From Geopsychrobacter sp. (GTDB lineage: Bacteria; Desulfobacterota; Desulfuromonadia; Desulfuromonadales; Geopsychrobacteraceae), in NCBI GenBank assembly GCA_021647445.1, contig JAKIUS010000002.1, positions 1 to 17,418 on the forward strand: 17,418 nucleotides of DNA, in the 5' to 3' direction. Every line of letters starts with the position of its first letter. Position 1 is the stretch's first letter. This document shows, piece by piece, positions 728 to 16,538 of the stretch. The translations under genes and the position numbers were made by a program. A model generated the notes under the pieces. It did not search any database and was not told where the DNA came from. It was given only the letters and a program-made list of their open reading frames with translations.

Positions 728-739
728 GGGAATAAAAAA

Positions 740-1210
740 ATGCGTCGATTTATCTATCTGCTGCTGATCTGTCTGTTGAGTGCCTGTGCCCTAGGAGGGC
801 AACAGACAGATAAATCAAAGTCTGCTTTCGAGCTTTCGCCAGCCTTAAGCCACGCGCAACTGCGGGAGGCTTTCGCCGCCCTGCCGGGAGTCTTGGTTCC
901 TGAGAGTGAACCACTGCGGGTGCTTTTTCCGGCGGGGGTTCTTTTTGCCAGCGGTTCCGTTTTGCCCATGCCGGGTGGCAGCGGGATGCTCGACAGCCTT
1001 GTCGACCTGCTCAAAGAATCGAACCTCGACTGGCGTTTTATCCTGCGGGCTGCTAGTGGCGAGGGGACTGAATACGACCAGGGCCTGGCGGCAGCGCGGG
1101 TTAAAATTCTGAAAACCTATTTCAAGGATGTTGGGCTCAACGTTCGCACCCTGCGTTTTCAGGCGGTTGCAGAAGCGGGACCCTTGCTTGAAATACAGAA
1201 CCTTAAATAG
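740..1210 (+). CDS. OmpA-like lipoprotein
   Basis: A 156-residue protein with a clear lipoprotein signal: Arg-Arg, a hydrophobic core and the lipobox L-S-A-C with Cys16 as the lipidated residue. The mature part, from about residue 55, resembles a short OmpA/MotB-type peptidoglycan-associated domain: 'LFPAGVLFASGSVLPMPGG', then a helix 'LDSLVDLLKES', then 'GLAAARVKILKTYFKDVGL', which matches the 'R-A-x-x-V-x-x-Y-(L/F)-x-x-x-G' end of that fold. It is likely held in the outer or inner membrane facing the periplasm. The start is preceded by GAGGGAA about 8 bases upstream. It lies 12 bases after the Gx gene and 27 before the nucleotidyltransferase gene, so co-transcription is likely. The OmpA-like assignment is moderate because the domain is short and divergent. 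Confidence 0.7.
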   Translation: MRRFIYLLLICLLSACALGGQQTDKSKSAFELSPALSHAQLREAFAALPGVLVPESEPLRVLFPAGVLFASGSVLPMPGGSGMLDSLVDLLKESNLDWRFILRAASGEGTEYDQGLAAARVKILKTYFKDVGLNVRTLRFQAVAEAGPLLEIQNLK

Positions 1211-1237
1211 TTACAATCAAGAAAGAGGAGTCGAACA

Positions 1238-2233
1238 ATGAAAGTCATTCTTCCGGTTGCGGGTAAAGGCACCCGCCTGCGCCCACATACCCATACCAAA
1301 GCCAAGTCGCTGGTTCATGTCGCGGGAAAAACCGTGCTTGAACATATCATCAGTCGACTTGAATCTCTGGAGATCAGTGAATATCTCTTTATTATCGATG
1401 AAAATGGCCAACAGATCAAAGAGTTCATGGCGCGGAAGTTTCCTGAGCTGAAATGTCGTTTTTTCGTGCAGAAGCAACGTCTGGGACCGGCGCATGCGGT
1501 GGCGCTGGCGGCACCGGCTATCGAAGAGGATGAAGACCTGTTGGTTGTGTTCAATGATACCATCTTCGTGACCGATCTGACCCGGATTCCGGAGCTCTGC
1601 GCAAATGCCGATGGCCTGATCTACTCGAAAGAGGTTGAGGATTATCAACGTTTTGGCGTCAATGTGGTGCGAGATGGTCGGATCGTCGATATGGTCGAAA
1701 AGCCGGACACCCCGGTTTCACGGCTGGCGCAGGTCGGACTCTATTACTTAAAAGATGGTCGTGGTTTCATCGAGCATATTGAGCAGACGATCAAGGCGGG
1801 GGAGATGGTCAAGGGGGAATACTATCTGCCCGCAGTCTTTATGCGCATGATTAGTGCGGGGTTGAACCTACAGGCTCCCGAGATCGATGCCTGGCTCGAT
1901 TGCGGTAAGCCGGAGACTCTGCTGGAAACCAATCGTTTCTTGCTTCAGGGTCGGCATCACGTGCATGGTGAGATTGAAAACAGCGTGTTGATTGAGCCGG
2001 TGCATATTGAACAGGGAGCCATGGTTAAAGATTCGATTCTCGGTCCAAATGTATCGGTTGCTGCGGGCAGTCGGATCGAAAAGAGTATCGTTTCCGATTC
2101 GATTATCAATGCCGAAAATCGGGTCATTAACATGGTGCTCGATCAGTCGCTGCTCGGGGATGTGGTCACCCTTGTCGGGTCACCGCGGCGCATGAATATC
2201 GGTGATCATTCGATTATCGAAATGGATCAGTAG
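1238..2233 (+). CDS. Sugar-phosphate nucleotidyltransferase with left-handed beta-helix tail
   Basis: A 331-residue enzyme that transfers a nucleotidyl group from an NTP to a sugar 1-phosphate, giving an NDP-sugar for polysaccharide or cell-surface synthesis in the cytoplasm. Residues 1-235 are the nucleotidyltransferase core: L-P-V-A-G-K-G-T-R-L-R-P at 5-16 (NTP loop), Lys21/Lys23 after it, a metal-site Asp at about 107 (F-N-D-T), a V-E-K-P sugar-binding strand, and W-L-D-C-G-K-P-E-T at 219-227. From about residue 240 a hexapeptide-like repeat (I-E-N-S-V-L-I-E-P, I-E-K-S-I-V-S-D-S) forms a beta-helix. This layout matches the long RmlA/StrD-like group and archaeal-type bifunctional enzymes; the sugar and NTP cannot be told from sequence. 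A strong AAAGAGGAG ribosome site precedes the ATG. Confidence 0.85.
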   Translation: MKVILPVAGKGTRLRPHTHTKAKSLVHVAGKTVLEHIISRLESLEISEYLFIIDENGQQIKEFMARKFPELKCRFFVQKQRLGPAHAVALAAPAIEEDEDLLVVFNDTIFVTDLTRIPELCANADGLIYSKEVEDYQRFGVNVVRDGRIVDMVEKPDTPVSRLAQVGLYYLKDGRGFIEHIEQTIKAGEMVKGEYYLPAVFMRMISAGLNLQAPEIDAWLDCGKPETLLETNRFLLQGRHHVHGEIENSVLIEPVHIEQGAMVKDSILGPNVSVAAGSRIEKSIVSDSIINAENRVINMVLDQSLLGDVVTLVGSPRRMNIGDHSIIEMDQ

Positions 2234-2248
2234 CCAGGATCATAAATG

Positions 2249-2380
2249 AGAGCCTCTTGCAAAAGGCTGAAAAATCAAGTGCCCGTCATTCCCGCGTAGG
2301 CGGGAATCCAGAAGTTCTCAGGTACGGCCTAAAAACTGGATTTCCGTTTTCACGGGGATGACAACTTTTGCAAGAGCCTC
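2249..2380 (+). repeat. Palindromic intergenic repeat, MITE-like
   Basis: The gap between the nucleotidyltransferase and DUF445 genes is mostly one imperfect inverted repeat. The outer arms are CTCTTGCAAAAG at 2254-2265 and its exact complement CTTTTGCAAGAG at 2365-2376, with GAG/CTC bases beyond them. The inner arms are 2285-2311 and 2336-2362, both starting GTCAT and ending ATCCAG when read inward. The centre, 2312-2335, is unpaired. No transposase is present, so it would be a non-autonomous element or a repeat copied in trans. The RNA would fold into a long hairpin and could affect transcript stability or termination between the genes. Confidence 0.8.
2288..2307 (+). repeat. ATTCCC-N8-GGGAAT inverted repeat (dRS3-like core)
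   Basis: ATTCCC (2288-2293), eight bases GCGTAGGC, then GGGAAT (2302-2307). This is the exact form of the 20-bp repeat called dRS3 in Neisseria, where it serves as a phage integration target and as part of repeat arrays. Very similar units are scattered in many proteobacterial genomes. The opposite arm of the larger palindrome carries a decayed version at 2339-2358 (ATTTCCG...CGGGGAT). Confidence 0.65.
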
Positions 2381-2410
2381 ATGAACATGTTTATTGTAAA
2401 GGATTTCTGA

Positions 2411-4012
2411 GTGAGCGGAATGACGATTAATCAACTGCTGCCCTACCTGCTGCCGCCTCTGCTCGGTGCGCTGATCGGCTATGTAACAAATTATATCGCC
2501 ATTCGCATGCTTTTTCGTCCGCTGAAGGCCTGGCGCATATTCGGTTTGCGCCTGCCACTGACTCCGGGAATTATTCCCGCCAAGCGAGGGGAACTGGCGT
2601 GTCGGATGGGAGATATGGTCGGCGAGCATCTGTTGACCGCCGCCGATGTCGGTCGCGCCTTTGCCAAGCCAAGTATTCAGAACGAACTGCGTCTGGCGGT
2701 GACCGACAAGCTCGGAACCTTTCTTGATCGAGAGCTGGGACCGCTCGAAACGCTGATTCCAGCCCGTTTTCGCCCCCGTTTCCGTGAGCTGGTTGATCTG
2801 CTGCGTGGCAAGGTGGCACGGCTGATCTTTGCTTACCTGCAGAGTGACGGTTTTGAAACCCGTTTGCGTGGGTATCTGCAGCGCCAGGGAGACCAGTGGC
2901 TAGCCCAGGATTTAGGCAATATTCTCACCCCACGGCGTTACCAAAGCCTGCAGCAGCATTTGGACGACAAGCTGAGCAGTTTTTTCCAGTCACCAAAGCT
3001 GGCCGAAACCGTTGGTCATTATGTAGATCATAAAACAGAAGCCCTGTTTGCCAATCAACGCCCCCTGCGTGAATTGTTGCCACCTGAGTTGATCGAGCTG
3101 TTACTCAAGCAACTGGAACGGGAGATCCCACCGTTGGTCGAACGTTTTGGCGGGATGCTGTATGATCCGGAATTTCGTGAGCGGCTGGTCGACAAGGGCA
3201 AAAAGGCGATCGATTCATTCCTCGATTCTTTGGGTGGCCTGGCCGGGTTGATCAGCGGATTCATGGACCTCAACAAGATTTACGATAAAATTCCTGAATT
3301 TCTCGACAAGGCCGGTGAAGAGGTTGCCGGTTGGCTCAAGGAAGAACGGACGCAACAGCAGCTGGCCGCACTGTTGCGTGAGCGGGTCGACGGCATGCTC
3401 GACAAACCCCTGGCGGTCTATCTGGAAAAACTTCCTTTTGAAAAGGTCAATGGGCTGCGTCGTTTTGTCCGTGAGCAGGCGATTGTTGCCCTGCAGTCGC
3501 GGCGTACCACTGAAGCAGCCCTTGGCCTGAGCGAAACCGCTATCGACCGGCTAAAGGATCGTTCTTTTGAAAGTTTGCTGAGCGCTAGTCTTCCGGACGG
3601 AACCCTCGACAGCGTGCGTGAGCAGCTGGCTGAGCGACTGCTCGAACTGCTCCGTTCACCCCAGGCGCGTACTGCTCTCGAAACCGTACTGCTGGAGCAG
3701 AGCGAAGAGTGGATCTACCGCAAGCCGCTCGGTCTACTTTCGGCACGGTTGCCGAATGACCTGCGTCAGGAGCTAGAGACTTCGCTCTGCCAGTTGGTCG
3801 AGGAGTTGCTTAAAAAAGAAGCCCCGCGTCTGGTCGAAACTCTCAATGTGAGGCGTATGGTAGAAGAAAAGGTCAACGGCCTCGATCTTATGCAGGTTGA
3901 AGGGCTGCTGATGGGAATCATGCAAGAGCAGTTTAAGTACATTAACTTGTTTGGTGGGCTACTCGGCTTTCTGATTGGTCTGCTCAACCTGGTGTTGCTG
4001 AGAATGATGTAA
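2411..4012 (+). CDS. DUF445 family membrane protein
   Basis: A 533-residue protein with the DUF445 hallmark at its N-terminus: one membrane segment (about residues 6-25, LLPYLLPPLLGALIGYVTNY) running into 'IAIRMLFRPL' and 'PLTPGIIPAKR'. A long, mostly helical, charged middle follows (about 60-500), and a second membrane segment lies at the very end (about 508-531). Both ends are thus in the membrane, with a large soluble helical part between. The family includes Bacillus YheB; the function is unknown. It is longer than YheB-type members, in line with delta-proteobacterial forms. The GTG at 2411 has AAAGGA 7 bases upstream; ATG 2420 is a possible start three codons later. Confidence 0.82.
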   Translation: MSGMTINQLLPYLLPPLLGALIGYVTNYIAIRMLFRPLKAWRIFGLRLPLTPGIIPAKRGELACRMGDMVGEHLLTAADVGRAFAKPSIQNELRLAVTDKLGTFLDRELGPLETLIPARFRPRFRELVDLLRGKVARLIFAYLQSDGFETRLRGYLQRQGDQWLAQDLGNILTPRRYQSLQQHLDDKLSSFFQSPKLAETVGHYVDHKTEALFANQRPLRELLPPELIELLLKQLEREIPPLVERFGGMLYDPEFRERLVDKGKKAIDSFLDSLGGLAGLISGFMDLNKIYDKIPEFLDKAGEEVAGWLKEERTQQQLAALLRERVDGMLDKPLAVYLEKLPFEKVNGLRRFVREQAIVALQSRRTTEAALGLSETAIDRLKDRSFESLLSASLPDGTLDSVREQLAERLLELLRSPQARTALETVLLEQSEEWIYRKPLGLLSARLPNDLRQELETSLCQLVEELLKKEAPRLVETLNVRRMVEEKVNGLDLMQVEGLLMGIMQEQFKYINLFGGLLGFLIGLLNLVLLRMM

Positions 4013-4066
4013 AGACCATTGATTTCAAGCTTATCCTCTGGCCGGTTATCAAATCAGGAAAAGAGA

Positions 4067-5545
4067 ATGATTGAAGTTACAGCATTGATAAAACAGGGAG
4101 AAGGCATTTCCGTTGAATTTAAGAAATGTCGCAATAACCTCAATCGGGATATTTATGAGACCGTCTGCGAGTTCCTTAACCGTCACGGTGGAACCCTGTT
4201 GCTCGGAGTGAGTGATGCCGGGGAGGTGACCGGTGTTGATCCAGACTGTACGGAACAACTGAAAAAAAACTTTGTAACGGCCATCAACAATCCGCAAAAA
4301 CTTTATCCTCCAGCCTATTTGTCCATTGATGAAATTGATAAAGAAGGCAAGACAATCCTGCGTATTTATGTGCCGGAAAGCTCACAGGTGCATCGCTGTA
4401 ATGGTCGTATCTTAGACCGTAACGAAGACGGCGACTTTGACATTACCGACCATACTACGCAAGTCGCCAATCTTTACCTGCGCAAGCAGACCACCTACTC
4501 GGAGAATAAGGTATATCCCCATGTCGGGCTGAGCGACTTGCGGTCCGATTTAATCGCACGCTGCCGTAAGCTCGCCGGAGTCTGGACTGCGGGCCACCCC
4601 TGGTCACAGATGGACGACCAGGAGTTGATCCAAAGTGCCCAGCTCTACCAGATCGATACCGAAACCAGAAAAGACGGTATTACTCTCGCAGGCATTCTTC
4701 TGTTGGGTACCGACCAGCTCATTCTATCAACCGTACCTCATCACCGGACTGATCTGATCTTGCGCAAGGTGAACCTGGATCGTTACGATGACCGGGATCT
4801 GGTTCGCACCAACCTGGTCGAAAGTTATGATCGAATTATTGCCTTTGTCCAGAAACACCTGCCCGATCCGTTTTTTCTGGAGGGCATGGATCGCATCAGT
4901 ATCCGCGACGCGATCTTCCGCGAAGTTGCCTCCAATATCCTGATTCACCGGGAATATACCAATGCGTTCCCAGCCAAACTGATCATCGAATTTGGGCAGG
5001 TCTGTACCGAAAATAGTAATAAGCCACATGGCTTCGGAACACTTGATCCAACCACCTTTACACCGTTCCCCAAGAACCCGGTAATTGGAGCTTTTTTCCG
5101 TGAGATTCATCGGGCCGATGAACTCGGCTCTGGAATGCGCAAGATGATGCGCTATGGGAATGCCTACGGTGGTGCCGATCCTGAATTAATTGAGGGGGAT
5201 GTCTTCCAGGTTGTGGTTAAGGTGCCGGAATTCGGAGCAATAGCGCCTCAACGCCCCTCTCTAAAACCAGAGTCAGAGGCCCAGTCGGGGGCCCAGTCGG
5301 GGGCCCAGTCGGGGGCCCAGTCAGATGATATCATTCACGCTCTGAGTGAGCGCGCTCTTTCAGCAAATGAACTGATTGAAATGCTGGGATTGAGCAGTAA
5401 AACAGGAGCTTTTAAGCGAAACATCAAAGAGCTGATGGATAGAAGATTTATTGAGTACACCCTTCCTGAGAAGCCCGGAAGTCGTCTTCAGAAATACCAA
5501 TTGACAGAAGCAGGTAACCGTTTCCTGAAATCTTCACAGGATTAG
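4067..5545 (+). CDS. AlbA_2/Schlafen-like domain, GHKL ATPase and winged-helix protein
   Basis: I place the start at ATG 4067, where AGGAAAAGAG stands at 4056-4065; a longer reading from TTG 4019 adds 16 unsupported residues. The 492-residue protein has three parts. Residues 10-130 are an AlbA_2 (Schlafen-type, putative nucleic-acid binding) domain, with E17-F-K-K and F36-L-N-R-H-G-G-T-L-L-L-G-V. Residues about 270-375 are a GHKL-type ATP-binding domain: E286-V-A-S-N290 with I-L-I-H-R-E-Y after it, F334-P-K-N-P, and D351-E-L-G-S-G-M-R-K. After a repeat-rich linker (405-419), residues about 420-492 form a winged helix. Such proteins occur as regulators or accessory factors beside restriction and toxin genes; the role is not established. 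The stop is 2 bases before the methyltransferase start, so the two are probably co-expressed. It opens the AT-richer accessory block. Confidence 0.82.
   Translation: MIEVTALIKQGEGISVEFKKCRNNLNRDIYETVCEFLNRHGGTLLLGVSDAGEVTGVDPDCTEQLKKNFVTAINNPQKLYPPAYLSIDEIDKEGKTILRIYVPESSQVHRCNGRILDRNEDGDFDITDHTTQVANLYLRKQTTYSENKVYPHVGLSDLRSDLIARCRKLAGVWTAGHPWSQMDDQELIQSAQLYQIDTETRKDGITLAGILLLGTDQLILSTVPHHRTDLILRKVNLDRYDDRDLVRTNLVESYDRIIAFVQKHLPDPFFLEGMDRISIRDAIFREVASNILIHREYTNAFPAKLIIEFGQVCTENSNKPHGFGTLDPTTFTPFPKNPVIGAFFREIHRADELGSGMRKMMRYGNAYGGADPELIEGDVFQVVVKVPEFGAIAPQRPSLKPESEAQSGAQSGAQSGAQSDDIIHALSERALSANELIEMLGLSSKTGAFKRNIKELMDRRFIEYTLPEKPGSRLQKYQLTEAGNRFLKSSQD
5279..5322 (+). repeat. In-frame 12-bp tandem repeat (AQSG units)
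   Basis: Three perfect copies of GCCCAGTCGGGG (5279-5290, 5291-5302, 5303-5314) and a partial fourth (GCCCAGTC, 5315-5322). Each unit encodes Ala-Gln-Ser-Gly. They form the flexible linker between the GHKL domain and the winged helix of the AlbA_2 protein. Because the unit is a multiple of three, copy-number change would alter linker length without breaking the frame. Confidence 0.93.
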
Positions 5546-5547
5546 AG

Positions 5548-8500
5548 ATGGAACTAAAAACAGAGATACAACAATGCCTCCAGGCCTTCTCCGGTAAAGA
5601 CTTGCGCACTGCCGCCATCGGTCTGCTGAACACTTTGGGCTATCAGAGTGAAAAGACCCTTGATCTCGGTGGTTCGCCAGAGGCATTTCTTGAGCAGTTC
5701 GACAATGATCCCGACCGGGCTTTCCGCAAAGACAAAGCCCTTTTTGAAGATTGGCAAGAGATTCAGCTGCTGTTCCAGCTTACAGATCAGGAACTCAGTG
5801 GTCAGAACAGTCTGTTTGTGGAAAACGAAGTAAAGCAGGGAGTGATGAACTCTTACCTCTTCTTTGCCCTCAGGCTGAAAGAGGCGACATACACTCGCGG
5901 CAAACTGGCGCAAATTACCCGCCAGCTAAACCGACTCTTTCCGATGCCGGTGATGGTGTTTTTTGAATATGACGGTCAGCTTTCTATCGCTGTCATCAAT
6001 CGTCGCGGAAACAAACGTGATAGCGACAATGATGTGCTTGGAAAAGTAACCTTTATCCAAGGTATCAGTTTGGCAGCTCCCCACCGTGGGCATCTTGACA
6101 TCCTGGCCAGTTTCTCCATTTCAGCACTGACCAGTAAGACTGGAATTAATAGTTTCGATGCTCTGCATGCGGCTTGGGAAGAAGTTTTTAACGTTGAGCT
6201 GCTCAACAAGAAATTCTACCGTGAACTTTCCAATTGGTATTTTTGGGCTATGCAGCATGTCCATTTTCCTTTTGACAACGCAGAGCTGGACAAGGATCAA
6301 CTCTTTAAAGACGATGACAAAATTCGGGAGCATGATGCCAAAAACCTCATCCGCCTGCTGACCCGGCTTTTGTTTGTTTGGTTTATCAAAGAGAAGGGTC
6401 TCATTCCAGAATCCCTCTTTGATTCGGATAAGCTGAAGAGCGAGGTGCTCAATGATTTTGATGACTGCTCTGCCGATACCCGTTTCTACAAAGCTATTCT
6501 CCAGAACCTGTTCTTTGCAACCCTCAACCAAAGCTGCGGTAAGCGCCAGTTCCGTAACCCAGGGCGACAGCATCGTAATATTACGACACTGATGCGTTAT
6601 CAGCAGTATTTTCAGGATTCCGACAGTTTCATTGCACTGGTTGAATCGGCCGTACCTTTTATGAACGGTGGTCTTTTTGAATGTCTGGATATGCCGCATC
6701 CGACTAAAAAGGGTCCCCAGGGCGGTGATGTGATCCTTTTTGAAGATGGCTTTTCAGATCGTGATGACAATGTGCTCCGGGTGCCGGATTTTCTCTTCTA
6801 CGGCAAACAAAAAAACATCGACCTCAGCGGAGTTTATGGTGACAATAAACGCAAAAAAGAAAAAGTTCTGGGCCTTATTCATATCCTCAATAGCTATAAG
6901 TTTACGATTGTTGAAAACACGCCGATAGAGCAGGAAATTGCGCTCGACCCCGAGCTTCTCGGTAAGGTCTTTGAGAATCTGCTTGCCTCTTACAACCCTG
7001 AAACAAAGACGACCGCACGTAAACAGACCGGCTCCTTCTATACTCCGCGAACCATTGTGGATTATATGGTCGACGAATCACTGAAGGCCTATTTGAGCCA
7101 GGCGCTTTGTAAGGCTTGCCCTGAAGTCACCGAAGGGGATGCCAAAGAAGGGCTTGATATCCTGTTTTCGTACTCTGAAAAAGAACATGTTTTTTCTGAG
7201 GCAGAAAAACTCGCACTCATTACGGCGATCGATAATTGCAAGATTCTCGATCCTGCCTGCGGTTCCGGTGCCTTTCCGATGGGCATTCTGCACAAGCTGG
7301 AGTTCATTCTCGGTAAACTTGATAAAAACAACAAGCTATGGCGTGATCGTCAAATTGGAAAAGTTAACGATACTATTGCTGTTGCCGAGCAGATTGACGA
7401 CGCTGTCATCCGCGAAAATACCGTTAAGGATCTGGAAGCCCAAAAAGAGGATGTTGAAGAGGCATTCTCGCAAAACGATCTTGGTTATGGCCGCAAACTC
7501 TACCTTATCGAAAACTGTATTTACGGCGTAGATATTCAGTCGATTGCCACGCAGGTGAGTAAGCTCCGTTTCTTTATCTCGTTGATTGTCGAGCAGGGGA
7601 TCAATCCGGATAAAGAGAACTTTGGTATACGCCCCCTGCCTAACCTGGAAGCTAAATTTACGACCGCTGATACGCTGATCCCGATCGAAAAGCCCGCAGA
7701 TCAGGGCGAGTTATTTGAATCCAAAAAGGTTAAGGACCTCGAAAAAGAGCTGAAACAGATACGACATAATTTGTTCAACGCCAAGACGCCGAAAACCAAA
7801 AACAAATACCGCTTACGCGATAAAGAACTGCGTGAACAGATTGCCGCAGAACTGGAAGTTAGCGGTTGGAGCAGCGCCTCTGCCCGGCAGCTTTCCCAAT
7901 GGGACCCCTACGACCAGAATGCCAGCTCCCCGTTCTTTGATGCTGAGTGGATGTATGGCATTTCGGACGGATTCGATGTTGTTATCGGGAATCCACCGTA
8001 TATTTCGGTTGAAAAATTCAGCGGGACGAAACAGCAAGAAGTATGGAAAAAAATCTATACAACTTATGCCGCCCGAGGTGATGTCTACTGTTTCTTTTAC
8101 GAACGTGGTGCTCAATTACTTAGACCTGGTGGACACCTCTGTTATATCACTTCCAATAAATGGATGCGGGCAGGCTACGGAGAAAAGCTGCGTGCTCTTC
8201 TCTCCTCGGCTGTAGATACCAAAGCCGTTCTTGATTTTGGTATGGCGCAGAATTTTGGTGCTGCCACCACTTATACGAACATTCTGAACTTTGAAAACAT
8301 ACCGACAACTAATCTCACCCAGGCTTGCTACGCTGCTGACGATAATGAGGCAATGGCTGATCCCGGAAATTATTTTCGGGGGAAAGCTGTACTGATGCCG
8401 GAACTTAGTGAAAACGCTTGGGTCGTCGTCACCCCCGAACGCTACCGCATCAAAAAATTAGTCGAGTTGCAGGGTGTCCCTCTTGGGAAGTGGAATTTAA

Positions 8501-9504
8501 ATATAAACTATGGAATCAAGACCGGTCTCAATGATGCTTTCTTCCTTACGCATGAACAGGTCGAAGACTTGATTGATCGTGAGCCACGGGGATCAGAGAT
8601 TATTGTACCACTTTTGCGCGGTCGTCATATTGATCGTTACAGGGTTAATTATGATGCTCTCTACATGTTGCTGATAAAATTCGGGGCATACAAAACACTT
8701 GAGCAGAATTATCCGGCTGTGTATTCACATCTGAAGAAATATGAAGCAGCTTTGAAAAAGCGTGGGCAGTGTAAATACTCACGGGCGAAGAAAGGAACTG
8801 TAAATCAGGAGTACCCTGGTCAGCATCATTGGTTGGAACTGGATAATAATATTACAGATGAATATATCGAAGCTTTCCGTCAACCAAAGATTATCTATCC
8901 GAATATGACCAAATACCTACCATTCTACTACGACCAGCAAGACCATTTTTTCATTAACGACAAAGCGTTTATCATGACCAGTGACTCAGAGTCGTTGCCA
9001 TATTTGACCGCCGTGTTGAACTCTTCTCTTTTTCGCTGCTGTTTCCGCGACAACTTCCCTGAACTGCTCGGAAATTCATATGAAGTACGTAAGGTTTTCG
9101 TAGACAAAATCCCGATCAAGAAATCCGACGCAATGACAGTGCCCCTGTTCGAAATATTGGTCAATTACATCCAGTTTGTAAAAGCTGACGCACATCAATC
9201 AACATCGGACAGCGCATCTGCTGCTGTTATTGCCGCTTTCCTCGAAGAGGTCATCGACGCCTGCGTGATGGAGGTTTATTTCGCTGAGCACATGCGTGAG
9301 CGCAAGCTCAACCTGATGGATCATGTTCGCTCGCTACTGCCAGCTGATAATGATCAGCGCAGTGATTCCGAAAAGTGGCACACTATCACTGCCTTTTTTG
9401 AACAGGCTAATACCCTGGATCACCCCATCCGCAACCGCCTGATGCGCATAATCAGCGATAGCCCCGAACTTCTCGCAGTGATCAAAAAAGAAGGCAAGGT
9501 ATGA
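5548..9504 (+). CDS. Eco57I/type IIG-like N6-adenine DNA methyltransferase (probable restriction-modification enzyme)
   Basis: A 1318-residue cytoplasmic protein. Residues 1-200 form an N-terminal domain seen in large Eco57I-like enzymes, including 'VMVFFEYDGQLSIAVINRR'; I see no certain PD-(D/E)XK triad in it. A helical region follows, then Q493-T-G-S-F-Y-T-P-R, which opens the methyltransferase domain. SAM-binding motif I is D568-P-A-C-G-S-G and catalytic motif IV is N815-P-P-Y, typical of N6-adenine methylation. A charged coiled-coil insert lies between them (about 730-775). After about residue 990, 'GIKTGLNDAFFLT' and 'LLRGRHIDRY' mark a TaqI_C-like target-recognition domain. The size and order fit single-chain type IIG enzymes and also PglX-type methylases, but no BREX partners are nearby. 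ATG 5548 follows CAGGATTAGAG. Whether it cuts DNA is unresolved. Confidence 0.85.
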   Translation: MELKTEIQQCLQAFSGKDLRTAAIGLLNTLGYQSEKTLDLGGSPEAFLEQFDNDPDRAFRKDKALFEDWQEIQLLFQLTDQELSGQNSLFVENEVKQGVMNSYLFFALRLKEATYTRGKLAQITRQLNRLFPMPVMVFFEYDGQLSIAVINRRGNKRDSDNDVLGKVTFIQGISLAAPHRGHLDILASFSISALTSKTGINSFDALHAAWEEVFNVELLNKKFYRELSNWYFWAMQHVHFPFDNAELDKDQLFKDDDKIREHDAKNLIRLLTRLLFVWFIKEKGLIPESLFDSDKLKSEVLNDFDDCSADTRFYKAILQNLFFATLNQSCGKRQFRNPGRQHRNITTLMRYQQYFQDSDSFIALVESAVPFMNGGLFECLDMPHPTKKGPQGGDVILFEDGFSDRDDNVLRVPDFLFYGKQKNIDLSGVYGDNKRKKEKVLGLIHILNSYKFTIVENTPIEQEIALDPELLGKVFENLLASYNPETKTTARKQTGSFYTPRTIVDYMVDESLKAYLSQALCKACPEVTEGDAKEGLDILFSYSEKEHVFSEAEKLALITAIDNCKILDPACGSGAFPMGILHKLEFILGKLDKNNKLWRDRQIGKVNDTIAVAEQIDDAVIRENTVKDLEAQKEDVEEAFSQNDLGYGRKLYLIENCIYGVDIQSIATQVSKLRFFISLIVEQGINPDKENFGIRPLPNLEAKFTTADTLIPIEKPADQGELFESKKVKDLEKELKQIRHNLFNAKTPKTKNKYRLRDKELREQIAAELEVSGWSSASARQLSQWDPYDQNASSPFFDAEWMYGISDGFDVVIGNPPYISVEKFSGTKQQEVWKKIYTTYAARGDVYCFFYERGAQLLRPGGHLCYITSNKWMRAGYGEKLRALLSSAVDTKAVLDFGMAQNFGAATTYTNILNFENIPTTNLTQACYAADDNEAMADPGNYFRGKAVLMPELSENAWVVVTPERYRIKKLVELQGVPLGKWNLNINYGIKTGLNDAFFLTHEQVEDLIDREPRGSEIIVPLLRGRHIDRYRVNYDALYMLLIKFGAYKTLEQNYPAVYSHLKKYEAALKKRGQCKYSRAKKGTVNQEYPGQHHWLELDNNITDEYIEAFRQPKIIYPNMTKYLPFYYDQQDHFFINDKAFIMTSDSESLPYLTAVLNSSLFRCCFRDNFPELLGNSYEVRKVFVDKIPIKKSDAMTVPLFEILVNYIQFVKADAHQSTSDSASAAVIAAFLEEVIDACVMEVYFAEHMRERKLNLMDHVRSLLPADNDQRSDSEKWHTITAFFEQANTLDHPIRNRLMRIISDSPELLAVIKKEGKV

Positions 9505-9704
9505 GCTGTTCGTGTTTCAATTTTCTGATCGCCATAGACGATCCCTTTAATCGTGATTTCTACACCCAAATGGCACAGATGGACGGTTGGTCCACACGTA
9601 CTCTCAGGGAACGGATTAACCCTATGCTGTTCGAATGCACCGCCTTGTTAAAGAACCGAGAATTACGAACTTACTCACAAACTGTGGCGCAAAAAATCAG
9701 ATAA
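9501..9704 (+). pseudogene. Remnant of a DUF1016 (YhcG-like PD-(D/E)XK nuclease) gene
   Basis: A 67-codon reading frame whose ATG overlaps the methyltransferase stop (ATGA at 9501-9504). From residue 8 it closely follows the middle of DUF1016 N-terminal domains: F-L-I-A-I-x-D-P-F-N-R-D-F-Y-T-Q-M, then W-S-T-R-T-L-R-E-R-I and M-L-F-E-C-T-A-L. Intact proteins of this family are about 330-380 residues, with helices before this segment and a nuclease domain after it. Both are missing, and the match fades after 'ALLKN'. I read it as the scar of a full-length gene that lost its 5' and 3' parts. An expressed small protein is possible because the coupled start is intact. DUF1016 proteins are frequent companions of restriction-modification genes. 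Confidence 0.72.
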
Positions 9705-9772
9705 GATTCTCCAGAAAGACCCATCTCATCATGTGGTAGGATCAGCAGCAATAAAAAACAGGAGAAAAGGCC

Positions 9773-11065
9773 ATGGCAAAGATAGAAGGCTTCAGAATTA
9801 AAAATTACCGTGTGTTGAAAGATGTGACACTTGGGAAGCTATGGAGTATGCAAAAAGCCCAAGCATTGACGCCTATGACTGCCGTAATCGGGAAAAACGG
9901 CGTCGGTAAAAGCTCACTATTCGACGCCTTTGGTTTTCTTGCAGATTGTTTGAAATTGGGTGTTGAAGAAGCCTGTGACACCAGAGGGCGGGGTGGTTTT
10001 GAGCGTATTTGTTCTCTAGGAGCTACCGGGCCGATTGAGTTTGAAGTCTATTACAAACAAGACGGTAATGCCCGTCCGATTACCTATGAACTTGCCATTG
10101 ATGCTGACAAAACCGGCCGACCCTACGTAAAACGGGAACGCCTTCGCCAGCGACGTAAAGGACAAAAACATGGTTGGCCATTCTCTTTTCTGGTGCTGAA
10201 TGAAGGCAAAGGAATCGTATGGAAAGGGGAAGAACTGGGACAGCCGTTTGATACCGATACGGAATTTGTTGATTTATTGCAGTTGATAAAAAAAATCGAA
10301 ACAGACTCACAAGCTGAAGAAAGTCGCGAAACTGAGATTGTTGAATTACAAGACAAGCGTAAACTCGGAATTGTAACTCTCGGAGCGCTGAAACAACATC
10401 CCAGAATATCGGCTTTTCGACAGTTCATCGAGGGTTGGTATTTGAGTTATTTCACACCAGATGCCGCCCGTAGCCTGCCATTAGCCGGGGCACAAAAGCA
10501 TTTGAATATACATGGGGACAATCTCGGCAATGTCGTTCAGTTTATGGAGCGTGAACACCCTAAACGCTTTCAGAGTATCCTCGACCGCATCGCTGAGAAA
10601 ATCCCCGGAATTGATCGGATCACTACCGAAGAGAGTCCAGATCGACGGGTGCTTTTACGGTTTAACGACAAAGGATTCGATGATCCGTTTTACGCACAAC
10701 AGATGTCTGATGGCACGCTGAAGGTTTTTGCTTATTTGCTTTTATTGGAAGATCCAACACCACCGCCATTTATCTGTATTGAAGAGCCTGAAAACGGGCT
10801 CTATCATAAACTTCTTGAGACTTTGGCAACGGAATTCCGTAGCCACGCCACCGGGCGGAAAAATGCACCGCAAATTTTCATCACAACCCATCAGCCTTAT
10901 TTTGTAGACGCACTCTCTCCGGAAGAGACCTGGATACTGGAAAAAGGACAAGGTGGTTTCTCGACCATTCGCAGAGCCAGTGATGATGCAACCGTTAAAG
11001 CTTTAGTCGATGAAGGATTGCCGCTTGGTAGCCTCTGGTACAGCGATTATCTGGATGCGGGGTGA
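9773..11065 (+). CDS. ABC-type AAA ATPase of a two-gene (ATPase + TOPRIM-like) module
   Basis: A 430-residue ATPase of the AAA_15/AAA_21, SMC/RecF-like kind. The N-terminus 'I-x-x-F-R-I-K-N-Y-R-V-L-K-D-V' is the usual first strand. Walker A is G40-K-N-G-V-G-K-S-S. A charged middle (about 105-200, with R-E-R-L-R-Q-R-R-K-G) is likely a helical insert. The C-terminal lobe has the signature-like M311-S-D-G-T-L, Walker B F333-I-C-I-E-E-P-E-N-G and the switch His373 in I-T-T-H-Q-P. All ATPase motifs look intact. The start has CAGGAGAAAAGG upstream. The stop lies 4 bases before the preferred start of the DUF4276-like gene, so the two proteins are probably made together. By analogy with PARIS AriA and OLD ATPases it may sense phage or foreign DNA and hold a partner effector; this is inference. 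Confidence 0.85.
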   Translation: MAKIEGFRIKNYRVLKDVTLGKLWSMQKAQALTPMTAVIGKNGVGKSSLFDAFGFLADCLKLGVEEACDTRGRGGFERICSLGATGPIEFEVYYKQDGNARPITYELAIDADKTGRPYVKRERLRQRRKGQKHGWPFSFLVLNEGKGIVWKGEELGQPFDTDTEFVDLLQLIKKIETDSQAEESRETEIVELQDKRKLGIVTLGALKQHPRISAFRQFIEGWYLSYFTPDAARSLPLAGAQKHLNIHGDNLGNVVQFMEREHPKRFQSILDRIAEKIPGIDRITTEESPDRRVLLRFNDKGFDDPFYAQQMSDGTLKVFAYLLLLEDPTPPPFICIEEPENGLYHKLLETLATEFRSHATGRKNAPQIFITTHQPYFVDALSPEETWILEKGQGGFSTIRRASDDATVKALVDEGLPLGSLWYSDYLDAG

Positions 11066-11069
11066 GCTG

Positions 11070-11717
11070 ATGCATTTTGAAATACTGATTGAAGATGCGT
11101 CAGGAAAACTCGCTTTGGATTCTATCATGGGGAAGATTCTTGGCCCAAATGAGCAAGATCATACCTACAAGGTAATTCCCTATAAAGGCATTGGCCGTAT
11201 TCCAAAAAACCTGAGAGGTAAAACAGATCCACAAAAGCGGATTCTTTTGGATCGTTTACCCAGGTTACTCAGAGGCTATGGGAAAAGCTTCCAAAGTTTC
11301 CCGGCTGTAGTTGTCGTGGTCGTAGACCTGGATAACAAGAGCGGTGTGGCGTTCAAACAGGAAATGCTCGACATTCTGAATAATTGTAATCCAAAACCGA
11401 CGACACTGTTTAGAATTGCAATAGAGGAAGGCGAAGCCTGGTTGATGGGAGACCGTAACGCCGTAAAAACCGCGTACCCTCATGCAAAGGATCAGATTTT
11501 GAACACTTATGTGCAAGACAGTATCTGTGGCACATGGGAAATGCTTGCGGATGTCGTTTATCCAGGCGGAGTGCAAAAACTCAAACAACTGGGCTGGCCT
11601 TATACCGGACAGGCTAAGTGCGAATGGGCGGAGAATATTGCACCTCACTTAGACGTGGAGAACAATCAATCTAGAAGCTTTCAGGTGTTTCGTGATGGAA
11701 TACGAAATCTGATGTAA
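11070..11717 (+). CDS. DUF4276/TOPRIM-like protein, partner of the AAA ATPase
   Basis: About 215 residues from ATG 11070, which sits 4 bases after the ATPase stop with GGGGTGAG at 11059-11066. The frame is also open from ATG 11010 and ATG 11055, both inside the ATPase gene. Features that suggest a TOPRIM-like fold are an N-terminal strand with E8-D9 and A-S-G-K, a run of valines ending in D86-L-D88, and I118-E-E-G-E-A-W-L-M-G-D128, which matches the 'E-x-W-(L/F)-x-x-D' pattern of DUF4276. TOPRIM proteins paired with ABC ATPases (OLD, PARIS AriB) act as nucleases in phage defence, so this is the likely effector. The fold and activity are inferred. The Trp-rich stretch near residues 150-195 (C-G-T-W-E, L-G-W-P-Y, C-E-W-A-E) is a recognisable mark of the subfamily. 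Confidence 0.7.
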   Translation: MHFEILIEDASGKLALDSIMGKILGPNEQDHTYKVIPYKGIGRIPKNLRGKTDPQKRILLDRLPRLLRGYGKSFQSFPAVVVVVVDLDNKSGVAFKQEMLDILNNCNPKPTTLFRIAIEEGEAWLMGDRNAVKTAYPHAKDQILNTYVQDSICGTWEMLADVVYPGGVQKLKQLGWPYTGQAKCEWAENIAPHLDVENNQSRSFQVFRDGIRNLM

Positions 11718-11763
11718 GTGTAAATCTAATCGCTGGTTAGCGACCGAGGTAAGAGGGTAGGGC

Positions 11764-12648
11764 ATGTTTGATGATGCTGATTTGAAAGCGCAGATGAAAA
11801 GGGTTCTAGCTGGCGTAGAGCAGTTGCTGCCGCAATTGACCGAACCGATTAACTGGCAACACTGCCATGCCGCAAGCTGGCGCCGCCATACGTTGACTGG
11901 TTTTTTGCACCCGGTTGAATATCTAGATCCGGTACAGCTGGATGATCTGCTCGGCATCGATAAGCAGAAGCAGATTCTTGAAGAGAACACCTCTCAGTTT
12001 ATCGATGGTTTTCCCTCCAATAACGTTCTCTTATGGGGAACCCGTGGCACCGGTAAATCGACCCTGGTTCGTGCACTGCTCAACCGTTATGCTTCCGACG
12101 GATTGCGCGTAATCCAGGTTGATAAAGACGATCTTGTTTACCTGCCCGATATCTTCGCCGTGGTTCGTGGCCAGGCCTACCGTTTCATCCTGCTTTGTGA
12201 CGATCTCTCATTCGAACCGGGCGAGACCAGTTATAAGGAGCTCAAGAGTGCTCTTGATGGTTCGGTCTACGCTGCGCCAGAGAATGTGCGGATCTATGTT
12301 ACCTCCAACCGCCGACATCTGCTGCCTGAGTATGAGACCGACAACCTTGGGGCCAAGATGGTCCATAACGAGATCCATCATGGTGAAGGGGTTGAAGAGA
12401 AGATTTCTCTCTCGGACCGTTTCGGTCTCTGGGTCGCGTTCAATAGTTTCAGCCAGGATCAATACCTCGTGGTGGTTGAGAAGACCATCGCCCGTATTTG
12501 TCGCGAACAGCAGCTTGCACCCTTCTGGGATCAGGATGTGAGCCAGGCCGCTATCGAATGGTCACGGGACAAGAGCAAACGTTGCGGTCGCACCGCCCTG
12601 CAGTTTGCTATTTATTGCGTCGGGCGGCGCATGCGCGAGGGTAAATGA
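11764..12648 (+). CDS. DUF815 family AAA ATPase
   Basis: A 294-residue P-loop ATPase. The N-terminal 80 residues are a helical lead ('HPVEYLDPVQLDDLLGIDKQ' just before the ATPase core). Walker A is G92-T-R-G-T-G-K-S-T, Walker B is F141-I-L-L-C-D-D-L, and a sensor-1-like I-Y-V-T-S-N-R-R-H-L-L-P follows. The end of the protein carries S-D-R-F-G-L-W and G-R-T-A-L-Q-F-A. This order is characteristic of DUF815, a widespread family of about 280-300 residues with no settled function. GAGGG stands 6 bases before the ATG. Its TGA overlaps the msrA start (ATGA at 12645-12648), so the two are translationally coupled. Base composition returns to that of the left-hand housekeeping genes, so I take it as the first gene after the accessory block. 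Confidence 0.88.
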   Translation: MFDDADLKAQMKRVLAGVEQLLPQLTEPINWQHCHAASWRRHTLTGFLHPVEYLDPVQLDDLLGIDKQKQILEENTSQFIDGFPSNNVLLWGTRGTGKSTLVRALLNRYASDGLRVIQVDKDDLVYLPDIFAVVRGQAYRFILLCDDLSFEPGETSYKELKSALDGSVYAAPENVRIYVTSNRRHLLPEYETDNLGAKMVHNEIHHGEGVEEKISLSDRFGLWVAFNSFSQDQYLVVVEKTIARICREQQLAPFWDQDVSQAAIEWSRDKSKRCGRTALQFAIYCVGRRMREGK

Positions 12649-13103
12649 TGGAGATTGCCTATTTTGCCGCCGGTTGTTTCTGGGGCATTGAGAAGAAGTT
12701 TTCTGAAATGATCGGGGTCTGCTCGACTGCGGTCGGCTACATGGGTGGTGACGGGTCGAATCCGACCTATGAGCAGGTCTGTAGCGGTGAGAGCGGTCAT
12801 GCCGAGACCGTCAAGGTGGAATTTGATCCGCAACAGATCAGTTATGCTGATCTGCTTGAGTCTTTTTGGCAGATGCATAATCCGACCTGTTTAAACTATC
12901 AGGGCTGGGATATCGGGACGCAGTACCGCAGTGCAATCTTCATTGTTGATGAAGGCCAGCGTCAGCAGGCGGAAGCGAGCTTTCAGGCCGAAATCGGCGG
13001 CGCGCGTCGCGATGAACCGATCGTTACTGAAATAGTCCCGGCACAGACTTTTTGGCGCGCGGAAGAGTACCACCAGCAGTATCTGGCCAAACGAAACCGT
13101 TGA
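12645..13103 (+). CDS. msrA: Peptide-methionine (S)-S-oxide reductase MsrA
   Basis: A 152-residue cytoplasmic repair enzyme that reduces the S form of methionine sulfoxide, using thioredoxin as the usual electron source. The catalytic cysteine is Cys11 in G-C-F-W-G. Other family marks are A-V-G-Y-M-G-G, P-T-Y-E-Q-V-C-S-G, G-H-A-E-x-V-x-V-x-F-D-P, Q-G-W-D-I-G-T-Q-Y-R-S and the terminal F-W-R-A-E-E-Y-H-Q-Q-Y-L. It is near the short end of the family and lacks the C-terminal tail where many MsrA proteins carry resolving cysteines; further cysteines occur in G-V-C-S-T, V-C-S-G and P-T-C-L-N. The start overlaps the DUF815 stop by four bases. ATG 12648 is an equally possible start one codon later. 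Confidence 0.95.
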   Translation: MMEIAYFAAGCFWGIEKKFSEMIGVCSTAVGYMGGDGSNPTYEQVCSGESGHAETVKVEFDPQQISYADLLESFWQMHNPTCLNYQGWDIGTQYRSAIFIVDEGQRQQAEASFQAEIGGARRDEPIVTEIVPAQTFWRAEEYHQQYLAKRNR

Positions 13104-13128
13104 CCCGAATCTCCCTCGCCTTTAAACA
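13100..13128 (+). promoter_or_regulatory. Possible sigma-70-type promoter before the SWIM/SNF2 pair
   Basis: TTGACC (13100-13105, five of six bases of the -35 consensus) lies 17 bases before TAAACA (13123-13128), a weak -10 in an AT-rich stretch. The gap between msrA and the SWIM gene has a second TTTAAAC at 13139-13145. The spacing is good but the -10 is poor, so this is only a candidate. Confidence 0.25.
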
Positions 13129-13155
13129 ATTCACATTTTTTAAACTGGAAAACCG

Positions 13156-14079
13156 ATGCCTTTTTCATTAACCATTCAGGAAATTCGCCGAGTCTGTGGT
13201 CAGACCTATTATCAACGGGGCCTTAATTATCAGCGTCAGGGTCGGGTGCTGGTTGCCGAATGGGATGATGAGGGACAGATGTTGTTCGGCGAGGTCAAGG
13301 GGAGTGGACGCAGAACCTATCAACAGGAGATCCTTTTCACCGCGGGTTCGAAGCACCATTTTGCTGGGTTCTGTAGCTGTCCGGTCTCAAATAATTGCAA
13401 GCATATCGTCGCTGTGCTGCTCGAATGGATCGAACTCAACCTAGAGACCTTTGCTCGCCAGTGTAATCCCGATCCCTTGAGTCTGATCAACTGGCAGCAG
13501 GCCACCCGCCAATTGTTGCATGACGCCGCCCATCGTAGTTATCCGGCCCCCGGAGAGGCCTGTCTGCTTTATCTTCTGCAGCCTAAGACTCAGGGACAGA
13601 CCCGAGTGCTGCAATTAAAGGTCCTTAAGAGTCGTCATTTAAAGCGTGGCGGTTGGGGCAAAACGACCTCCTGCAAACTTGCAGATTTGATCGGATATTA
13701 CAATCCGCCAGCCGGGGCCAGGCCAGTCGATAAGGAGATTGCACGTTTACTCAGCCCCGTCGATCGTTTTGGCTATACTTACGACTATAATCCGCCCCAG
13801 ATTGAGGGCGATATTGGGATTTTGGTGCTGCAGCGTTTATTGGAGACTGGGCGCTGTTTTTTTGAATCGATCGAACATCCGGCCTTACGTCTCGGGCCGC
13901 CTCGGCAGACAGATTTCTTGTGGCAGGAACAGGGGGCGTTGACTCAGTTAAAAATCTGCCTTAATGAAAAGACCGATTGGGTTTTGATTCCGACCACGCC
14001 CCCCTGGTATCTGGATCGCAAAACCGACCAATGCGGCCCCCTTGAACAGGCACTTGACACCCCGCCCTGCAATCCCTGA
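13156..14079 (+). pseudogene. SWIM zinc-finger half of a split SWIM-SNF2 helicase
   Basis: A 307-residue frame carrying a SWIM zinc finger, C73-S-C75-P-V-S-N-N-C81-K-H83, near the N-terminus, followed by a region of unknown fold ('LLYLLQPKTQ', 'RLLSPVDRFGYTYDY') found upstream of the SNF2 core in bacterial SWIM-SNF2 proteins of about 1000-1100 residues. It ends at TGA 14077-14079 within a TGATG that starts the helicase ORF. The two products together (307 + 782) have the length of one family member. One extra C in CCCC 14060-14063 would join them as L-D-T-P-A-L-Q-S-L-M-N-L-P-P, which continues the C-G-P-L-E linker well. It may be a mutation, a sequencing error or a tolerated split; nothing else in the frame is damaged. 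The zinc finger probably guides the helicase to DNA or a protein partner. Confidence 0.75.
14060..14063 (+). other. CCCC tract at the frame break between SWIM and SNF2 halves
   Basis: The four-C run lies just before the point where the SWIM frame leaves the family pattern. The helicase frame is open from 14058 onward and reads H-P-A-L-Q-S-L into the annotated ATG. One more C here would make a continuous 1000+ residue reading frame. It is the most economical site for a one-base loss. Confidence 0.6.
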
Positions 14080-16427
14080 TGAACCTGCCGCCAGTGGCGA
14101 AAGAGCATTTGGCTGATCTCAGTTATTTTCTGCTCCAGCAGTTTCCGCCGAATGCCATCCCGCTGCCGGTAGAAATCGAGATGCAGCACTATGATAAGGC
14201 CCCGCAACCACAGTTGATTCTGCACGGCGTCGTGGATGCTGCAGGCAAACGCTATCATCTCGCGCGGCTGCGCTTTAACTATGGGCCTCTGAGTCTGGTG
14301 CCGCTCAAGCGAGGCGAAAAACCTTTGCAGTTGATTCAGCATCAGGATGAAACCTGGCAGATCAACCGTCATCACCCAGAGGAAGAGGCCGCACTGGAGC
14401 ATATCTGTCACTATGGTCTGGTCCCTGCTCTTACTTCCTCCGACTCCCCAGAGTTGGATCTGTTTTTTGCGACTTCAAATCTGCAGGAGTCGGCACTGGC
14501 CTGGATGGATTTTCTCAAACAGGTTCCTGAGCTCGAAGCCCAGGGATGGCAGGTCGATATCGAATCCAGCTTTCAACTCAGTTTCGAGACCGCCACCGGG
14601 CTACAGGCTGAGATCTCTGAGAGCCAGATGGGTTGGTTTGAGGTCGGCCTTAATATTGAGCACGCTGGGCATAAGATTGCGCTGCTGCCGCTGTTGACCC
14701 AATGGCTCGAAAATAAAGATCCGCAACAGCCGCTGCTCCATCTGCTGGAGGGCAACCGCTGGCTGGAGATTCCGGCGACCGTGTTGGAGCCGGTGGTCAA
14801 GACCCTGGTCGAGCTCTATCAGAATCCACAGTTGAACGACCATGGCCAACTCAAACTGCCCCGTCCCCAGGCCCACGGTCTGCTGGAGCTTGAGGAACAG
14901 TTGAGTGCCATCGGTCATGAGTTTGTCTGGCAGGGGGGCAAACAGTTACGTCTGTTGGCTAAAAAGCTTAAGAATTTTCAAGGGATACAAGAGGCGCCAC
15001 TGCCCAAGGGCCTAAACGCTGAACTGCGTAGCTACCAACGTCAGGGGCTCTCCTGGCTGCAGTTTCTGCGTGAATATGAGTTAAGCGGAGTGCTGGCCGA
15101 TGATATGGGGCTGGGCAAAACGATTCAGGCTTTAGCGCACCTGCAATTGGAGAAGGAGGAGGGGCGGCTTGAAGACCCGGTCTTGATCATCGCGCCGACC
15201 AGTGTCATCAGTAACTGGCAGCGGGAGGCGGCACGCTTCACGCCGGAACTGAAATCTTTAGTGTTGCACGGACCGGGGCGTTCGGCCTTCTTTGATACCT
15301 TGGCCGATTACGATCTGATCATTACCAGCTATGCTCTGTTGACCCGCGACCTGGAACAACATCTGCGTTATAACTATCACAGTCTGATTCTCGATGAGGC
15401 CCAGGCGATCAAAAATCCCCGTGCCAAGAGTGCCCTGTCTGCCTGCAGTATCAAGGCGAAACATCGTCTATGTCTGACCGGTACCCCGCTTGAGAATCAC
15501 TTAGGAGAACTCTGGTCACTGTTCCAATTTCTGATGCCCGGTTTTTTGAGCACTCAGAAGCGTTTCACCCAACTCTTTCGCACGCCCATCGAAAAGCATC
15601 AGGATTTTGAACGACAGCAGCAGTTGCAGCAACGGGTTGCGCCCTTTGTTTTGCGGCGCGATAAGTCGCAGGTGGTGCTGGAATTGCCACCCAAGACCCA
15701 GATGGTGCGTGAGAGTGAACTGAATCCCGCGCAGAGCAAACTCTATGAGAGCTTGCGCTTGGCGATGACCGATAAGGTGGGGAAATTACTGCAGAAAAAA
15801 GGGCTGAAGAATAGTCACATCGAAATTCTGGATGCCTTGCTTAAGTTACGACAGGTCTGCTGTGATCCCCGTTTGGTCAAGCTGGAGAGCGCGCGCAAGG
15901 TCAAGCAGTCAGCCAAACTTGAAGCCCTGCTCGCCTTACTCGATGTGTTGCTCGAAGAGGGACGGAAGATCCTGATCTTCTCTCAGTTTACCTCGATGCT
16001 CAGTCTGATTGAGGCCGAACTTCAGGAACGGCAGATCGCCTACACCAAATTGACCGGTCGCACGCGAAAACGTGATGAAGTGATCCAGATCTTTCAGAGC
16101 GGCGAGGTACCGGTTTTTCTCATCAGCCTTAAGGCCGGGGGTGTTGGTCTTAACCTGACCGCCGCCGATACGGTCATTCATTATGACCCTTGGTGGAACC
16201 CGGCGGTTGAAAATCAGGCCACGGACCGTGCTCATCGCATCGGTCAAGAGAAACCGGTCTTTGTCTACAAGTTGGTCGCCAAGGGGACGTTGGAAGAGAA
16301 AATTCTTAAATTACAAGAGAAGAAGCAGGCTCTCGCTGATGGGGTCTATAGGCAGAGCGATAAACAGGAACAGTTACCCGGCGTGAGTTCAGAAGATTTG
16401 TTGTCATTGTTGACGGCTATTGAATAG
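14079..16427 (+). CDS. SNF2-family DEAD/DEAH-like helicase (ATPase half of SWIM-SNF2 protein)
   Basis: A 782-residue frame. Residues 1-300 are the pre-helicase region of bacterial SNF2 proteins. The motor follows: motif I D341-D-M-G-L-G-K-T, motif II D439-E-A-Q, motif III L466-T-G-T-P-L-E-N, then, in the second lobe, I-L-I-F-S-Q-F-T, S-L-K-A-G-G-V-G-L-N-L-T and motif VI D716-R-A-H-R-I-G-Q. All are intact, so the ATPase should be active as a double-stranded DNA translocase that remodels protein-DNA complexes. The ATG overlaps the TGA of the SWIM ORF (TGATG), which would allow termination-reinitiation, but there is no clear ribosome site of its own. The frame is closed upstream by TGA at 14055. 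It most likely began as one gene with the SWIM part. Confidence 0.9.
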   Translation: MNLPPVAKEHLADLSYFLLQQFPPNAIPLPVEIEMQHYDKAPQPQLILHGVVDAAGKRYHLARLRFNYGPLSLVPLKRGEKPLQLIQHQDETWQINRHHPEEEAALEHICHYGLVPALTSSDSPELDLFFATSNLQESALAWMDFLKQVPELEAQGWQVDIESSFQLSFETATGLQAEISESQMGWFEVGLNIEHAGHKIALLPLLTQWLENKDPQQPLLHLLEGNRWLEIPATVLEPVVKTLVELYQNPQLNDHGQLKLPRPQAHGLLELEEQLSAIGHEFVWQGGKQLRLLAKKLKNFQGIQEAPLPKGLNAELRSYQRQGLSWLQFLREYELSGVLADDMGLGKTIQALAHLQLEKEEGRLEDPVLIIAPTSVISNWQREAARFTPELKSLVLHGPGRSAFFDTLADYDLIITSYALLTRDLEQHLRYNYHSLILDEAQAIKNPRAKSALSACSIKAKHRLCLTGTPLENHLGELWSLFQFLMPGFLSTQKRFTQLFRTPIEKHQDFERQQQLQQRVAPFVLRRDKSQVVLELPPKTQMVRESELNPAQSKLYESLRLAMTDKVGKLLQKKGLKNSHIEILDALLKLRQVCCDPRLVKLESARKVKQSAKLEALLALLDVLLEEGRKILIFSQFTSMLSLIEAELQERQIAYTKLTGRTRKRDEVIQIFQSGEVPVFLISLKAGGVGLNLTAADTVIHYDPWWNPAVENQATDRAHRIGQEKPVFVYKLVAKGTLEEKILKLQEKKQALADGVYRQSDKQEQLPGVSSEDLLSLLTAIE

Positions 16428-16524
16428 CGGTCTGGGTGATAATCAAAAAGGCGACTGCATGACCAGAATCAAGCGGACAGACGTCTTTTATGGGCATCTA
16501 AAGGTGAATTTCGCCGGTTTACGC

Positions 16525-16530
16525 AGAAGG
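16525..16530 (+). promoter_or_regulatory. Ribosome binding site deciding a TTG start
   Basis: AGAAGG ends 8 bases before TTG 16539. No in-frame ATG or GTG with a comparable site lies before the conserved start of the GATE protein, so this site supports TTG as initiator. TTG 16533 is too close to be preferred. The preceding stretch from 16428 has no convincing terminator or promoter. Confidence 0.5.
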
Positions 16531-16538
16531 GTTTGGCG

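Follow-up and report, generated by a model that had tools for sequence, protein, structure and literature searches.

The window analysed here, 17,418 nucleotides from Geopsychrobacter sp. (assembly GCA_021647445.1, contig JAKIUS010000002.1, positions 1 to 17,418 of the forward strand), carries a compact block of genes between a DUF445 and a DUF815 gene. We find that this block is a horizontally acquired insertion, and that it is likely a defence island with two independent parts: an intact HEC-01 cassette, formed by an ABC ATPase gene and a DUF4276 gene, and a left-over methylase module, formed by a gene with AlbA_2 (Schlafen), GHKL and winged helix parts, an N6-adenine methyltransferase gene and a DUF1016 stub. 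An earlier note on this DNA had listed these five elements, closely spaced on a single strand, and taken them for a foreign defence island; open reading frames and Pfam searches bear out the list, all five lying on the plus strand, and composition and empty sites in relatives bear out the foreign origin. Every part of the block belongs to a known kind.

The block has been inserted between DUF445 and DUF815

We compared the junction in a family sample of 44 genomes, the window's own included, 17 of which have an orthologous DUF815 (best match at E 1e-130 or better). Among 60 relatives, DUF445 was detected in 51 and a DUF815 family member in 55. In 12 of the 17 family genomes the two matches lie 13-113 bp apart, counting the stop codon of DUF445. 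Four of these belong to the window's genus (G003, G004, G005, G006), and the others are G010, G017, G020, G021, G022, G029, G030 and G036; G065 provides a thirteenth empty site, with a spacing of about 115 bp calculated from match positions. The site in G008 looks empty as well, but its contig stops within DUF815. The empty site that the earlier note had suggested looking for in close relatives is thus found in 13 family genomes. The block also differs from its flanks in composition, with a G+C content of 46.8% against 53.6% on the left and 52.7% on the right. Windows of 500 bp average 0.468 in the block (standard deviation 0.023, n=30) and 0.533 in the flanks (standard deviation 0.022, n=36), with ranges that partly overlap, and G+C at third codon positions is 0.42-0.53 in four block genes versus 0.57-0.65 in nine measured flanking genes. 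The two counts from which the earlier note had argued for a local shift, 22 G+C at 8641-8700 and 34 at 14881-14940, are exact. Because DUF445 and DUF815 are adjacent in 13 family genomes and the composition shifts, we conclude that the block is an insertion; in view of the empty sites, a reading as native genes was rejected.

The junction is filled in five of the 44 family genomes, with differing contents; occupancy in two of them, G027 and G028, is read across contig ends. Besides the window and three filled sites among the 17 (G024, G027 and G028), there is a further one outside the 17, in G013. The G024 site holds an AlbA_2 gene whose product is 72% identical to the window's, and a 94-amino-acid (aa) frame without a Pfam match, which by eye looks like the beginning of a site-specific methylase. 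At the G027 site stands a divergent HEC-01 pair (PADLOC HEC-01A 1.4e-92, HEC-01B 6.8e-60), its ATPase split over two contig ends and its HEC-01B-type protein matching no Pfam family; the pairs of the window and G013 are best matched by a different PADLOC model set from that of G027. In G028, a type I HsdR gene lies immediately 5' of DUF815, and DUF445 is terminal on a different contig. G013, from another genus, has HEC-01 alone directly 3' of DUF445. Between that pair and MsrA we find a scrap of DUF815, a weak 24-residue match with an internal stop codon (L065 3588-3692), so that DUF815 seems dispensable there; DUF815 is missing, and MsrA comes after DUF445, in G001, G011, G012, G018, G023, G031 and G034. 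Three of the four other occupied sites therefore hold recognisable defence genes standing alone and one holds the AlbA_2 gene, and such varied occupants suggest a local integration hotspot at this junction. Among the papers listed as combining two of the subjects DUF445, DUF815, defence island and integration hotspot, none mentions DUF815.

The ATPase and DUF4276 genes form an intact HEC-01 cassette

The ATPase matches the PADLOC model HEC-01A at 2.8e-197 and Pfam AAA_21 at 2.2e-47, in agreement with its earlier reading as an ABC ATPase, and its Walker residue K46 is invariant in 41 aligned rows. The DUF4276 protein matches HEC-01B at 3.3e-94; its Pfam DUF4276 match (1.9e-4, 22.1 bits) falls under the cut-off of 30.2, but the HEC-01B match upholds the family assignment of the earlier note. 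With both models matched, in order, by genes 4 bp apart, the pair is by its sequence an intact cassette of HEC-01 (Hma-embedded candidate 01, PADLOC-DB) and a separate module. The earlier note knew of no named system here, which for this pair proves incorrect. Our cassette differs from the name's setting in having a methylase as its neighbour and neither HmaA nor HmaC, and other copies occur in varied contexts. No HmaA helicase gene lies between DUF445 and DUF815, and as regards an HmaB methylase, no Hma model appears among the best 25 of 60 PADLOC rows.

Both proteins have many relatives: 5781 of 5898 candidates in one search for DUF4276, and all 8000 of the 8000 scored candidates for the ATPase. 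Among the matches listed, own entry excluded, about 118 of 120 DUF4276 relatives have PF14103 as their precomputed Pfam label. With a threshold of E 1e-100, the ATPase occurs in 5 of the 136 order genomes and in 10 of 395 from the phylum, the latter a draw from a larger group and the window's own genome being counted in each. We examined 12 HEC-01 neighbourhoods besides those of the window and G013, comparing them with 12 reference proteins and naming other neighbours by eye. A DUF4276 match stands beside the ATPase in nine of the 12; in L195 the contig stops within the ATPase, and no such match is present in L198 or L212, the L212 ATPase itself being truncated. The window's methylase family is in none of the 12. 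Two copies lie amid type I restriction-modification-like genes (G485, G391) and two near helicase-like frames (G343, G378), all by eye. Two neighbourhoods weigh against a cassette that always stands by itself: helicase and DUF1016 matches, both weak, occur in L196, and the ATPase of L197 has a helicase-like frame (40% over 79 residues) directly 5' of it. Without the methylase, the pair is also found on the conjugative plasmid pGLE121P3 between conjugation genes (L220 6001-7960; DUF4276 57% identical) and on a Rahnella plasmid in a prophage-like stretch amid phage-like genes (L221 6001-7943; DUF4276 50% identical). Both of these pairs are annotated merely as AAA family ATPase or hypothetical protein, and in the literature searched we found no mention of HEC-01 together with PADLOC.

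Upstream of the ATPase, similarity among copies ends, by eye, near the ribosome-binding site. In five of 15 copies, the window's among them, a motif TANGAYC lies 35-38 bases 5' of the start of the ATPase gene; none of 5000 shuffles reached five, a count to be read in the light of the motif having been picked after looking at the sequences. The closest ATPase relative (P0122) is 95% identical and the DUF4276 relative P0044 is 80% identical, both on contigs of 10,915 bases; if these share one contig, then the cassette's two genes have different histories.

DUF4276 is a predicted TOPRIM nuclease

Residues E8, D86 and D88 of the DUF4276 protein are invariant in 65 aligned rows. When a structural model of the protein was searched with VIA-align, the 11 best rows were OLD, GajA and retron Eco2 chains, all weak matches. 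From the conserved residues and the model, we predict that the DUF4276 protein acts as a TOPRIM nuclease whose active site contains E8, D86 and D88.

The two-gene layout is that of PARIS, in which the ABC ATPase AriA is paired with the TOPRIM nuclease AriB. The window's ATPase matches the AriA model at 8.4e-44, far less well than HEC-01A; the AriB model gave no match, and the nine PADLOC families that the DUF4276 protein matched at 0.001 are all HEC-01. By analogy with PARIS, we infer that the pair works as an ABC ATPase sensor coupled to a TOPRIM nuclease. The OLD-like ATPase would keep the DUF4276 nuclease inactive, detect a phage trigger and then release or activate the nuclease, which would cut nucleic acid, perhaps tRNA, so that the infection is aborted. 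Alternatively, the cassette may be intact but OLD- or Gabija-like, cutting DNA; we regard this as a real possibility, albeit the less probable of the two. It draws on OLD and GajA being the top structural rows for DUF4276, matches that are nevertheless too weak for a choice between the two kinds of mechanism, and the split into two genes is as in PARIS. In the block, unlike in OLD and GajA, the ATPase and the TOPRIM-like part are on separate proteins, and the block has no GajB-type gene.

The methylase module is best read as a remnant

The 79 methylase loci that we collected derive from 199 confirmed stretches, of which the best 80 were kept, a choice that favours close relatives. As many of these contigs are cut, denominators were restricted to loci with enough flank. 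An HKD(PLD)-SNF2 helicase (about 1110 aa; PADLOC C3a139, 'HKD+Snf2') lies near the methylase in 59 of the 64 loci with at least 2 kb available upstream, and an SMC/RecF-like ATPase in 21 of the 63 with at least 1 kb downstream. Eight further methylase loci gave a helicase match in six, the other two being cut within about 0.5 kb upstream. Both relatives from the order that have this methylase also have the helicase and the SMC-like ATPase. Locus L069, whose methylase is 64% identical to that of the window, carries both genes. An AlbA_2-type gene is directly 5' of the methylase in 8 of the 79 loci, preceded by the helicase in five and by a contig end in the other three, and DUF1016 matches occur in 10 of the 79.

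By frames and Pfam, the block has no gene for an HKD-SNF2 helicase or an SMC-like ATPase. Nor does the window's own genome, a 71% complete metagenome-assembled genome with the window as contig 75, contain a full-length match to the helicase: the best matches are two segments within a single 881-aa frame (E 5e-11 and 5.6e-7), besides a weaker one elsewhere. The DUF1016 frame has a 4-base overlap with the methylase stop and aligns to positions 98-136 of the 137 in PF17761 (3.8e-7, 30.7 bits; cut-off 32.8), that is, the end of the N-terminal domain only, which confirms its description as a remnant; of four DUF1016 proteins tried, that of L122 aligned best (31% over 54 residues). The block thus shares the methylase family of the HKD(PLD)-SNF2 restriction-like operons, and AlbA_2 or DUF1016 stands beside this methylase in some loci, but the window lacks the helicase and the SMC-like ATPase and its DUF1016 is a stub. 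HKD-helicase systems are discussed in PMC12839542 and PMC10853773.

The earlier note had called the methylase type IIG-like. Its best PADLOC label, REase_MTase_IIG (3.2e-98), and its Eco57I and TaqI_C domains agree with this, but the same label (1.7e-106) goes to the methylase of the complete L069 helicase operon. Across 41 aligned methylase rows NPPY and DPACGSG are conserved, and no PD-(D/E)XK pattern was seen by eye among the 90%-conserved residues of the N-terminal region. A type IIG reading is set back by this, and the window's methylase is unlikely to be a self-contained enzyme of that type. Two other systems were set aside: the BREX model PglX (NF033452) scored 77.9 bits against a curated cut-off of 500, and the MADS model MAD3 (NF047739) 87.9 bits against 420.

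Pfam supports the part order AlbA_2, GHKL, winged helix proposed for the first protein of the block (PF04326 6.7e-17; Fic-like_C winged helix PF21247 1.1e-10), with the GHKL match (HATPase_c_4, PF13749, 2.1e-4, 21.7 bits) under the Pfam cut-off of 26. According to PMC12839542, accessory proteins of the type Schlafen RNase-minimal histidine kinase-winged helix-turn-helix occur in BREX and related loci. The window's protein has the same three-part order but stands beside a methylase lacking its helicase, and its RNase activity is a prediction. At 5278-5322, a perfect 12-bp tandem array of 3.8 copies encodes an SGAQ linker in this protein, and similar repeats, of QVEA, stand at a comparable place in the G024 homologue. 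In L087 (55-4354; Desulfobacterales), an AlbA_2 protein 82% identical over 392 residues lies beside a methylase that is 56% identical; the AlbA_2 gene may therefore be transferred independently from one such operon to another.

Because the helicase is usual in the family yet absent here, and DUF1016 is a stub, the preferred reading of the module is a methylase and a putative Schlafen/AlbA_2 accessory left behind from a broken HKD-SNF2 restriction-like operon. A helicase-nuclease would once have stood here and been lost, and the module would now probably methylate adenine at N6 but not restrict. Several observations weigh against this: the methylase and AlbA_2 frames are intact, five of the 64 family loci also lack the helicase, a helicase remnant was looked for at the junction and none was found, and the window's genome is incomplete, which bears on the helicase's absence. 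Together with the type IIG label, the first three would fit a module that is complete and never had a helicase here, in which the methylase, with a hidden nuclease or as a solitary epigenetic or anti-restriction enzyme, acts beside a Schlafen RNase. We consider this unlikely, given how regularly the helicase accompanies the family, in both order relatives and before AlbA_2 in every AlbA_2-methylase locus not cut by a contig end, given the lack of a conserved nuclease pattern in the methylase N-terminal region, and given the DUF1016 stub adjoining the methylase.

Two modules are favoured over one system

The earlier note had left it open whether the block is one multi-gene system or two modules side by side, and had held that the methylase and the ATPase pair never occurring together elsewhere would speak against its proposal. 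A close HEC-01 ATPase lies near the methylase in a single one of the 79 methylase loci, L071, 5.3 kb downstream, where the pair is 85% and 77% identical to that of the window; weaker ATPase relatives (26-34%) are near the methylase in L093, L118 and L138. With one locus in 79, the two are nearly, but not quite, never together, so a single five-gene system is not supported and was set aside, and the two-module option is favoured. An integrated system, in which methylation would mark self and the ATPase-nuclease pair punish unmethylated or trigger-bearing phage, AlbA_2 included, is very improbable: the single strand, short gaps and L071 are compatible with it, but the 12 other HEC-01 neighbourhoods lack the methylase and G013 has HEC-01 alone at the same junction. 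Also very improbable is a chimera in which the HEC-01 pair functionally replaces the lost helicase-nuclease, joining an orphan methylase, a Schlafen-type protein and a TOPRIM abortive effector at a dedicated defence hotspot between DUF445 and DUF815.

Features of the block and its borders

Table 1. Positions of the block, its genes and the bordering genes in the window.
Feature	Positions	Strand	Remarks
Inserted stretch between DUF445 and DUF815	4013..11763	no strand	approximate ends, from G+C and empty sites in relatives
DUF445 gene, left border	2411..4012	+	PF04286 1.4e-39
AlbA_2 (Schlafen)-GHKL-winged helix gene	4067..5545	+	methylase module (putative accessory); longest frame 4019-5545, ATG at 4067 best start by eye
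Eco57I/TaqI_C N6-adenine methyltransferase gene (predicted)	5548..9504	+	methylase module; 1318 aa; PF07669 9.4e-37, PF12950 2e-10
DUF1016 (YhcG) N-terminal stub	9501..9704	+	67 aa; PF17761; nuclease domain absent
TAGGATC, possible -10 element (speculative)	9737..9743	+	36 bases 5' of ATPase start
HEC-01A ABC (OLD-like) ATPase gene	9773..11065	+	HEC-01 module; 430 aa
HEC-01B DUF4276 gene, TOPRIM-like	11070..11717	+	HEC-01 module; 215 aa
DUF815 gene, right border	11764..12648	+	PF05673 1.8e-99

Implications

Despite its 5781 relatives, DUF4276 was not mentioned in the literature searched, and the prediction that DUF4276/HEC-01B is a TOPRIM nuclease is thus new to that literature; it is directly testable. 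An intact cassette beside an apparently decaying restriction operon warns against treating neighbouring genes of this sort as a single system. Within one family, a single junction has no insert in at least 13 genomes and carries one in five, and its occupants include HEC-01 pairs of two PADLOC model sets.
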